From contig NC_011144.1 of the NCBI RefSeq assembly GCF_000017265.1, positions 124,001 to 188,000 on the forward strand: a stretch of 64,000 bases of DNA, written 5' to 3'. Numbering within the stretch: the first letter of the stretch is position 1; each line of letters opens with the position of its first letter. A program made the translations under genes and the position numbers. Shown piece after piece: positions 45,248-48,403 of this stretch. The notes under the pieces were generated by a model. That model searched no databases. It saw only the letters and a program-made list of their open reading frames with translations, and was not told the DNA's origin. This DNA comes from Phenylobacterium zucineum HLK1 (lineage in GTDB: Bacteria; Pseudomonadota; Alphaproteobacteria; Caulobacterales; Caulobacteraceae).

Positions 45248-45256
45248 CGGCGGCTC

Positions 45257-45411
45257 CCTTCTCCCCTTGCGGGAGAAGGTGTCGGCCGAAGGCTGACGGA
45301 TGAGGGGTTGAAGGCGGGTTCAGCTTCCGTGCCGCGGCGGGACGGGCGGTGCGACCCCTCATCCGACCTGCTGCGCAGGCTGCGTTCTCCCGCAAGGGGA
45401 GAAGGGTTCTA
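45257..45411. repeat. Pair of inverted intergenic repeats (REP/BIME-like)
   Basis: Copy A (45259-45307) reads CCCTTCTCCCCTTGCGGGAGAAGGTGTCGG...CGGATGAGGGGTTG. Copy B (45354-45411) is its inverse, ending TTCTCCCGCAAGGGGAGAAGGGTT. Each copy contains a hairpin (TTCTCCC...GGGAGAA). The two copies face each other across ~46 bases between convergent genes. A degenerate third copy lies after sucB. The form resembles REP-type elements common in alphaproteobacterial intergenic regions. Confidence 0.8.
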
Positions 45412-45849
45412 GTTATCCTCCCCCCAGGCGAGCCACTGGCGCTCGGCGGCCATGTGCCGGCCGACGTCGTGGCCCAGCGCCAGCAGCCGCGCGGCCTTGG
45501 CCCGGTGTTTCGCCCAGCCCTGGACGGTGCTGCGGCCCGGCATGCGCGGGTCGCGGCAGATCGTCCGCAGCGGCTCGCCCGCGCAGAGCCGCATGTAGAT
45601 CGCCTCCATCAGCGCCTCGCCGTAGAGCGACGGGCGGCCCGGCCGGTCTAGCCCGCCATAGGCGCGCGCCGCCGCCACGTCGTGGGCGAAGTCCGGCCGC
45701 TCCTTCAGCCAGCGCATGACCGTGGGCCGCGTCGGCATGTCGGCCCCCCGGCAGATCGCCCGCAGCCCCCGCCCCGAGGCGAGCCCGGCGATGATCCGGT
45801 ACGCCACCGGCTCGGCGAACGGGACGTAGGGCTTGGGGGGCCTGGCCAT
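45409..45849 (-). CDS. Sf6-type phage terminase small subunit-like protein with tandem HTH
   Basis: A 146-residue protein with two copies of a helix-turn-helix unit: VAYRIIAGLASGRGLRAICRGADMPTRPTVMRWLKERPDF (residues ~12-51) and LMEAIYMRLCAGEPLRTICRDPRMPGRSTVQGWAK (~70-104). The spacing and the I-C-R-x3-MP-x3-TV-x-W pattern match the DNA-binding domain of Sf6-like small terminases. No large terminase or other phage gene is next to it, so it is a remnant or a domesticated DNA-binding protein. Start MARPPKPY at 45849; an ATG at 45873 is possible. Its 3' end touches repeat copy B. Confidence 0.75.
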   Translation of the reverse strand: MARPPKPYVPFAEPVAYRIIAGLASGRGLRAICRGADMPTRPTVMRWLKERPDFAHDVAAARAYGGLDRPGRPSLYGEALMEAIYMRLCAGEPLRTICRDPRMPGRSTVQGWAKHRAKAARLLALGHDVGRHMAAERQWLAWGEDN

Positions 45850-46115
45850 CCGGCGGATGTAGGGTGGGAACATATGGGGAACAAGGGGCGGGGGTTCGCG
45901 GTCGGTGGGTCCGGCACCGCTCAAGCGGCGCGGCGGCGACGCCGAGAGCCATTGGGATTTGTTGCGGCAGACGGGAAGTCGATGCTGGGGAGATCTGTCG
46001 ATCTGCAATCTTAACCCGCGCCGTTGAGCGGATGGATTGCGTTGCTGTAAGTCTCGCCCGATACGCGTCGTGGCCGCCGCGGACGAACCGCGGTCGCGTA
46101 GTGGGGGACTAAGCA

Positions 46116-47600
46116 GTGGAAATGCGCTCTGACAAACGGGAGCTCGACAAGATTTTCAAGCGCCGTGATCGCTACGAGATCCCGGACTGGCAGCGTGACG
46201 AGGTCTGGGATGTTCCGCGCAAGCAGAAGCTGATCGACTCCATCCTGAGAGGTTGGCGACTTCCGAAATTCTACTTCGTCGTCACGGGGCCACAGACGTA
46301 TGAGGTCGTGGATGGTCAGCAGAGACTTTCGACCATATTTGAGTTTCTTTCTGGAGAACTGACCCTCTCTGAGCAAACGGCCGAGGAATTTGGAGGTGCG
46401 ACCTACGCCGAGCTGCCCGCCGACATCTCCGATCAAGTAGATGACTTCGAAATCGACTTTGACGAGATCAGCGACGCCTCAGATGACGAGCTGATGGATT
46501 TCTTCCAACGGCTGCAGAGTGGCCTGCAGCTGAACTCGAGCGAGAAACTTAACGCGGTTCCAGGCAAGCTGAAGGATTTCTGCAAGAAGTCAGCGAAACA
46601 CAAGTTCTTCAAGGACTGCGTTGCATTCAGCGACCGCCGATACGCACACTTTGACGTTATGGCAAAGGTAGCTACCCTCGAAGTGGAGGGTCCGGGAACG
46701 GGCCTGAGATATCAGGACGTGAAGCAGGTGTTCGAAAGCAACGCCGGCTTTTCCGAGCAGTCACAGGTGGCGAAACGGATCAAAGCTGCGCTTGACCTGC
46801 TCGCTGGGGCGGTGCCCGTCGGCTCGAAGACCTTCCGTAGTCGGTCGATCACACAATCGTTCATTACCATGGTCTGCCACCTGCAGAAGACCACAAGCCT
46901 GAAAGGAAAAGAGCAGACAATCGGGGCCTTCGCCGAGCACTTCGTGAAGTCGCTCGCCGCCGAGGTGGAGAAGGGCCAAGACGCGACTGACGTCGACCTC
47001 ATCGCCTTCCAGAAGAGCGTCAACGCCAATGTGAAGGCTGGCCCGATCGTCCGGCAGCAGGTACTGCTCCGGAAGCTCTTCCAGTTCGCCCCGGACTTCC
47101 TCGACGCCGTGGATCCACAGGCGCTCGCCGGTGCGAACTTCAGCGGCGAGATCGCCAGTGTTGCGAAGGCGATCCGCGCCGATATCCAGGCAATCAATGA
47201 AGCCTACGCCGGGACCCATGGCTCAGATCTGTTCAAGGCTACCAGCAAGACCGCTGAGGCCCAGGCGGTCATCGGGGAACCCGCAACCAACTACGACGCC
47301 TACAAAACCCTAGTGGACAATATGTATTTCCTCTTTTGGGAGGGACCAGGGCCGAAGATCGACAGGCCGGCGTCATTCAAGGACGTCAACGCTCTCCGGA
47401 CAGAGCTCCAGCACGACACTGACCACGGGAATGCCAAAGACGTAGCGAAGAAGAAAATGAAGAACGCCAGCGTCTTCCAGAAGTACGCCGGTACCGCCTC
47501 GCCGCTCGTGGCCGCGCCTGCCCGCTTCCAAGTCCTGCAGTTGAATCTGCTGAGAGAGATCCGCAACGACCTACAGGCGATGCTTGCCGAACTTGCGTGA
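46116..47600 (+). CDS. DUF262 domain protein with C-terminal HEPN-like motif (GmrS-related, putative defence)
   Basis: A protein of 494 residues. The N-terminal DUF262 (ParB/sulfiredoxin-like) has IPDWQRDEVWDVPRKQKLIDSIL and the signature EVVDGQQRLSTIFEFLSG (DGQQR at 66-70). A helical middle region has no recognised family. The C-terminus (about 400-494) lacks the HNH DUF1524 domain of GmrSD proteins and has RTELQH (Arg428, His433), an R-x4-H pattern like HEPN nucleases, followed by DTDHG and a Lys-rich helix. GTG 46116 fits GGGGGA at 46103-46108. Base composition is visibly less GC-rich than the neighbours, suggesting transfer. Alternative: DUF262 protein of unknown role. Confidence 0.8.
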   Translation: MEMRSDKRELDKIFKRRDRYEIPDWQRDEVWDVPRKQKLIDSILRGWRLPKFYFVVTGPQTYEVVDGQQRLSTIFEFLSGELTLSEQTAEEFGGATYAELPADISDQVDDFEIDFDEISDASDDELMDFFQRLQSGLQLNSSEKLNAVPGKLKDFCKKSAKHKFFKDCVAFSDRRYAHFDVMAKVATLEVEGPGTGLRYQDVKQVFESNAGFSEQSQVAKRIKAALDLLAGAVPVGSKTFRSRSITQSFITMVCHLQKTTSLKGKEQTIGAFAEHFVKSLAAEVEKGQDATDVDLIAFQKSVNANVKAGPIVRQQVLLRKLFQFAPDFLDAVDPQALAGANFSGEIASVAKAIRADIQAINEAYAGTHGSDLFKATSKTAEAQAVIGEPATNYDAYKTLVDNMYFLFWEGPGPKIDRPASFKDVNALRTELQHDTDHGNAKDVAKKKMKNASVFQKYAGTASPLVAAPARFQVLQLNLLREIRNDLQAMLAELA

Positions 47601-47695
47601 GCGCTGGAGGTAGCGCTGGCGACCCCCGCGCCGCGCCTGATCGCGGCTTTCCCACCCCGATCGCTGCGCGATCTGGCCCTCCCCAGACGGGGGCC

Positions 47696-48403
47696 TCACC
47701 CCGCCTCCTTCATGTTCTGCCAGTGCTCCTCGCGCAGGCGGCGCCAGCGGGCGCGGAGGGCGGCGGGGCGTTCGGGGTAGCGCTCGTCGGTGAACTCGGC
47801 GGCCGAGACGCGGTCGGTGCGGAAGCTGCGGAAGGCCTGGCGCAGCTCGCACCAGGTGACCAGGAGGCGGCTCGTCTCGTAGTAGCCGATGGCGAAGGGC
47901 CAGACGGTGCGGCGGGTCTCGCGCTCCTGCTCGTCGCGGTAGGTGAGGGCGATCTTGCGGCCCGCGCGGATGGCGCGGCGGACCTCGGCCATGTCGAGGT
48001 TGTCGGGCTTGGCGTGCCAGTTGGGCAGGGCGCGGGTGGCCGGCTCGAGCGCCAGCGGCCGCAGGGTCTCGGGGATGACGGCGGCGATCTTGGCGATCAG
48101 GTCCTCGGCGGCGCGCTTCAGGGCCGGATCGCCCCGGGCGGCGACCATCTGGGCGCCCAGCACCGCGGCCTCCACCTCGTCGGGCGTCAGCATCAGCGGC
48201 GGCAGGTCGAAGCCGTCCTCCAGGATGTAGCCGACGCCGGCCTCGCCGCGGATCGGCGCCCGCTGGCCGATCAGGTCGGCGATGTCGCGGTAGACGGTGC
48301 GCTTGGAGGTCTCCAGCTCCTGGGCGATGGCGTCGGCGGTCACCGGCCGGCGGGTGCGGCGAAGGATCTGGATGATCTGGAACAGCCGGTCCGCGCGGCG
48401 CAT
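47696..48403 (-). CDS. YafY-type transcriptional regulator (HTH-11 plus WYL domain)
   Basis: A 235-residue protein. The N-terminal winged helix (RADRLFQIIQILRRTRRPVTADAIAQELETSKRTVYRDIADL) is followed by a linker and a WYL-type domain (RAGRKIALTYRDEQERETRRTVWPFAIGYYETSRLLVTWCELRQAFRSFRTDRV). The WYL triad is not strictly kept, as in most YafY proteins. Start MRRADRLF at 48403. It is divergent from the GST-like gene, with an imperfect 9-bp dyad between them that is probably its operator. Confidence 0.92.
   Translation of the reverse strand: MRRADRLFQIIQILRRTRRPVTADAIAQELETSKRTVYRDIADLIGQRAPIRGEAGVGYILEDGFDLPPLMLTPDEVEAAVLGAQMVAARGDPALKRAAEDLIAKIAAVIPETLRPLALEPATRALPNWHAKPDNLDMAEVRRAIRAGRKIALTYRDEQERETRRTVWPFAIGYYETSRLLVTWCELRQAFRSFRTDRVSAAEFTDERYPERPAALRARWRRLREEHWQNMKEAG

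Follow-up and report, generated by a model that had tools for sequence, protein, structure and literature searches.

In BrxU and SspE the DUF262 domain carries out NTP hydrolysis, and BrxU acts through a dimer-monomer change (PMC10952713). A short motif of the domain, DGQQR, plays a role in nucleotide binding (PMC10952713). In two described systems DUF262 is coupled to a further component: in Menshen the DUF262 gene is partnered by a predicted OLD nuclease, and PD-T4-2 brings DUF262 together with HEPN (PMC10952713). A survey of HEPN domains records a DUF262-containing fusion with an added HNH (the ParB/DUF262 type, VNG7073) and places the HEPN Rx4-6H motif at the 'end of helix-3 and beginning of the loop' (PMC3710099).

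Here we describe a gene of Phenylobacterium zucineum HLK1 that bears on these systems. It lies at 46116-47600 on the plus strand of the window, by which we mean the whole 64,000-nucleotide stretch of DNA that was analysed, and encodes a protein of 494 residues built from a DUF262 domain, a helical middle region and an all-helical C-terminal domain. Full-length homologues are 45-52% identical to it. PD-T4-2 already provides an example of DUF262 paired with a HEPN gene of its own; the gene described here is a one-gene variation with a different, putative effector domain.

The likeness to PD-T4-2 consists of a DUF262 component (PADLOC profile PD-T4-2_A, E 3.6e-11) coupled to a domain that carries R-x4-H. 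PD-T4-2-like pairs, found in one genome of the window's family (L055) and on plasmids with MAE_28990-type HEPN, comprise two genes, whereas the window protein is a single polypeptide. No separate HEPN gene follows DUF262 in the window; the downstream neighbour is a WYL regulator on the opposite strand. The C-terminal domain also differs: compared by profile with RiboL-PSP and MAE_28990 HEPN proteins, it shows no resemblance to them. With GmrSD, BrxU and SspE the protein shares a DUF262 domain with DGQQR, and its N-terminal and middle regions are BrxU-like, but it lacks the DUF1524 His-Me (HNH) domain of the type IV enzymes GmrSD and BrxU and ends instead in a different, helical C-terminus (Pfam, structure model). 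The best PADLOC profile for residues 3-181 is NsnA, the DUF262 component of Menshen (E 6.3e-32). That similarity is N-terminal only, and no OLD nuclease gene adjoins, the neighbours being a terminase-like gene and the WYL regulator. The VNG7073-type fusion carries an HNH that the window protein lacks, and for the latter HEPN homology is putative.

Architecture of the protein

The reading frame opens with GTG and runs over 494 codons without an internal stop; the start is credible because full-length homologues align from residue 1. As the earlier note had remarked, the gene is lower in GC than its surroundings: 0.57-0.60 across 46000-47500, against 0.65-0.76 in flanking blocks (about 70% around the gene). 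That note had also recognised an N-terminal DUF262 domain from two short sequences, IPDWQRDEVW (residues 22-31) and DGQQRLST (its DGQQR at residues 66-70), and Pfam agrees: PF03235 (GmrSD_N/DUF262) matches residues 11-147 (46146-46556, +) with 76.9 bits and E 3e-21, against a curated cut-off of 33.2 bits. In the structure model this domain has a ParB-like NTPase fold, and both BrxU (7p9k) and ParB/Noc structures align with it. The NTP-binding motif (I/V)DGQQR appears as VVDGQQR at residues 64-70, and D66-G-Q-Q-R70 (46311-46325, +) is invariant in all seven full-length sequences.

The helical middle region, residues 148-338 (46557-47129, +), is partly common to stand-alone DUF262 proteins and BrxU, as judged from models, structure matches and alignment ranges. 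BrxU is the best PDB match of the full model by Foldseek (E 5.8e-4) and the sole match in a PDB sequence search, through the N-terminus (E 0.0082). VIA aligned BrxU with the full model over residues 25-324 at Z 6.6, but with an rmsd of 13.1. Confidence in the full-length model is low at the extreme N-terminus. A search of NCBIfam with the whole protein gave no match. The earlier reading that an HNH signature is missing holds: Pfam has no DUF1524, GmrSD_C or HNH match in the protein or in five homologues, and the C-terminal model is all-helical. The gene product is an intact, real DUF262 protein with a conserved, undescribed helical C-terminal domain.

This domain, residues 340-494 (47133-47597, +), was found in this DUF262 subfamily only. 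Viral contigs, plasmids and two phylum samples (396 and 345 genomes) were searched for it, whether free-standing or in a different architecture, and returned known members only. It had been placed in the last ~95 residues; its motif is indeed there, but the domain itself begins near residue 340. Folded separately, residues 332-494 give a confident all-helical model (pLDDT 87, pTM 0.84) with helices at 342-368, 377-385, 393-409, 419-431, 440-458 and 468-493.

The densest conserved stretch of the domain is residues 424-438 (47385-47429, +), V-N-x-L-R428-T-x3-H433-D-x-D-H437-G, where 10 of 15 positions are invariant. Conservation was scored in eight sequences, among them the window protein and an N-terminally cut Streptomyces copy (L045). 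The sequence noticed earlier is present as described: R428-T-E-L-Q-H433, then D434-T-D-H437-G438, then a Lys-rich helix (440-458). The codons of R428, H433 and H437 lie at 47397-47399, 47412-47414 and 47424-47426 on the plus strand. Free variation of R428 or H433 among homologues, which by the earlier note would have removed the nuclease idea, was not seen; both are invariant in 8 of 8 sequences, and no histidine in the whole protein besides H433 and H437 is invariant. T429, D434, D436, H437, G438, E409 and D485 are just as invariant. When invariant positions were assigned at random within the C-terminal domain, a patch this dense arose in 0.7% of trials, and an invariant R with an invariant H at a spacing of x4-6 in 3.6%.

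The HEPN question

Is the C-terminal domain a HEPN ribonuclease, as the earlier note had expected from R-x4-H? Part of that expectation stands. The C-terminus is predicted to be all-helical, and R428-x4-H433 falls within the Rx4-6H range. In the model R428 occupies the last turn of helix 419-431, H433 lies just past it, and the next long helix is 440-458. This position at a helix end fits the description of HEPN domains, on the assumption that helix 419-431 of the model corresponds to helix-3. Accessory residues were compared as well. The residue after R428 is the invariant T429, which is polar, but in HEPN domains this position is mostly N, D or H. HEPN domains also have an acidic residue in helix-2 within Ex3[KR]; here E409 is invariant and the basic residue comes five positions on, not four.

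What did not appear is significant similarity to any HEPN family. Even with the E limit raised to 10, Pfam HEPN profiles matched none of six family members, and PADLOC profiles showed no significant HEPN similarity for the C-terminus. When the C-terminus was scanned with Pfam and PADLOC, and the whole protein with PHROGs, any matches to the C-terminus stayed at noise level. An hhalign comparison with an alignment of DUF262-linked HEPN proteins (RiboL-PSP and MAE_28990) gave no match, with a shallow query (Neff 2.2). The fold search with the C-terminal model against the PDB and viral models found nothing significant, and neither a HEPN nor an HD family stood out. HEPN chains entered the fold lists at noise level only (4nqf, E 2.5; 1ylm and 6m6u, Z 3.9); in the match to HepT, the HepT motif seems to fall on another loop of the model, as far as aligned ranges alone indicate.

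We conclude that HEPN homology of the C-terminal domain is plausible and unproven. HEPN chemistry is likewise plausible, and it is the single most likely chemistry for the domain, held tentatively and at rather less than even chances. The site may be other than HEPN because two long helices come after the Rx4H motif in the model and because T429, D434, D436, H437 and G438 are as invariant as the two motif residues. An HD phosphohydrolase was also considered and set aside: there was no match to HD domains and no further invariant His for an HD-type site.

Relatives and genomic setting

Full-length relatives are rare and scattered across phyla. In a scan of one genome per species they occur in a Coriobacteriia MAG, Hymenobacter, Lysobacter and two Streptomyces, and one more (L036) comes from viral contigs. 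A search of the genus Streptomyces added L045, the copy cut at its N-terminal side; Streptomyces and Hymenobacter queries run against viral contigs returned no further members. The gene was not found in the other 198 genomes sampled in the window's family. The closest partial relative, on a Rhizobium plasmid, is 32% identical over residues 23-328 and lies within a SNF2-methyltransferase-helicase cluster.

That homologues might sit in defence islands proved true in part. Several lie among mobile or defence genes: L036 near an integrase, an Eco29kI-like endonuclease, an FRG-SET gene and a gene with a weak match to a DNA methylase, L002 near two integrases and a PIN gene, L006 near an AspBHI/Mrr-type endonuclease, and L003 near a HEPN-domain (PF05168) gene. 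For L004 and L005 the nearest scanned genes are a housekeeping gene and one that weakly matches an IS200-like transposase. No neighbour shared across the homologous loci was seen. The FRG-SET gene, at L036:6501-7739 on the mobile-element contig, unites both domains in one gene. Directly downstream of the Streptomyces homologue in L045, at positions 1180-2541, is a 453-aa gene without a Pfam match.

In P. zucineum the gene lies in an extra segment at 45257-47740, between lptB and the WYL regulator gene. In the window this junction spans about 2.5 kb and holds a terminase-small-subunit-like gene and the DUF262 gene; in two congeners (L077 and L081), compared with the window by blastn, it measures 68-69 bp. 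Elsewhere in the genus it carries an S9-peptidase-like gene (L076), an amidohydrolase-like gene (L078) or a small gene (L079). Since other congeners hold unrelated genes there, the junction is not a defence island but a site that varies generally. No recognised defence gene lies beside the DUF262 gene in the window, and no convincing repeats were found to bound the insert. The scattered distribution of the gene, its absence from the other 198 family genomes sampled, its low GC and the near-empty junction in congeners point to horizontal acquisition, and the gene is probably mobile.

Two further features of the segment were recorded. At 45409-46008 on the minus strand, beside the DUF262 gene, is a solitary Sf6-type terminase-small-subunit-like gene (PF20901, E 9.6e-24), with no other phage gene recognised next to it. 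Just after lptB, at 45256-45406, is an inverted repeat with 53-nt arms that are 77% complementary and 45 nt apart; it has a CTTCTCCCCTTGCGGGAGAAGG core and is possibly a REP-like element.

The family profile also matches DUF262 proteins of about 350-370 aa that lack the C-terminal domain; the match takes in the N-terminal domain and some of the middle region. In L055 such a short gene precedes a RiboL-PSP HEPN gene, and on plasmids of E. coli, Roseomonas, Klebsiella and Polaromonas the gene directly downstream of DUF262 is a MAE_28990 HEPN gene. A SIR2-family gene immediately follows DUF262 on Sinorhizobium and Hymenobacter plasmids (L049:3932-5834 and L050:3932-5810), the same pair in two phyla. 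FRG or AAA genes adjoin short DUF262 genes in other sampled genomes. Because short DUF262 genes adjoin HEPN, SIR2, FRG and AAA genes, it is reasonable to read the fused C-terminal domain as an effector, and by this analogy it probably is one. The domain has the look of an in-built toxin or of an enzyme that cuts RNA.

A possible mechanism and its rivals

How might the protein work? By analogy with GmrSD, BrxU and SspE, the DUF262 domain would bind and probably hydrolyse an NTP, serving as both sensor and switch. The helical middle region would relay the conformational change. The C-terminal domain would be the effector, with a putative active site around R428, T429, H433, D434, D436 and H437; its most likely chemistry is predicted to be metal-independent RNA cleavage of the HEPN kind by R428 and H433. 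Infection would release the effector, which would then stop phage growth or the cell. What we propose is a single-protein device against phages (or plasmids), acquired horizontally, in which a DUF262 sensor controls an effector with HEPN-kind chemistry. The defence role, effector role, nuclease activity and HEPN homology of the window protein are all inferred, and we consider the proposal as a whole possible, somewhat short of an even chance. The earlier suggestion of a single-gene DUF262-HEPN fusion acting against phage is thus kept in part: one gene does join DUF262 to a conserved helical domain, and the HEPN component, for which no significant similarity was found, is possible.

The other explanations differ chiefly in what they ask of the C-terminal domain. 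It may be a catalytic all-helical effector of an undescribed kind, unrelated to HEPN, whose site R-T-x3-H-D-x-D-H-G is under the control of a DUF262 NTPase acting as the switch of a one-gene defence system; we regard this as doubtful, yet worth serious consideration. If such a non-HEPN effector used H433-D-x-D-H437 with E409 or D485 to bind a metal and cleave nucleic acid or nucleotides, the invariance of D434, D436, H437, G438, E409 and D485, which equals that of R428 and H433, would be explained, as would the absence of a HEPN match by every method used. The domain, however, resembles neither HD domains nor any other helical metal hydrolase that is known, and it offers no additional invariant His to complete an HD-type site, and we judge metal-dependent cleavage rather unlikely. 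At the far end of the scale is a degenerate or rearranged GmrSD-type HNH. D436-H437 of DTDHG, as its remnant, does superficially resemble the DH of the GmrD motif DHIYP (PMC10952713), but Pfam finds no GmrSD_C match, the all-helical model has no HNH beta hairpin, and we give the idea almost no credence.

Two explanations place the activity elsewhere. The DUF262 domain might itself be the enzyme, an NTPase or a ParB-like nickase, with the C-terminal domain recognising modified DNA or a phage protein, or driving oligomerisation. Both the invariance of DGQQR and the NTP hydrolysis of BrxU and SspE, together with the dimer-monomer change of BrxU (PMC10952713), agree with this. Recognition domains, though, usually vary fast, and here we find a compact, charged, invariant cluster that looks like an active site; we consider a purely recognising C-terminal domain unlikely. 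The protein might also be inactive alone and belong to a multi-gene system whose partner is elsewhere in the genome, for DUF262 proteins often work with partners, as in Menshen, Dazbog and PD-T4-2 (PMC10952713). The lack of a common neighbour across the homologous loci suits a stand-alone gene better, and a distant partner seems improbable.

Whichever chemistry the C-terminal domain has, DUF262, known as a module that senses phage, appears to be a general-purpose switch, attached to HNH nucleases by fusion and set beside HEPN, SIR2, FRG and AAA genes. With a single gene and a compact, conserved putative active site, the family offers a simple system for studying the signal to which DUF262 responds and its control over an effector, and it may contribute an effector domain not yet catalogued.
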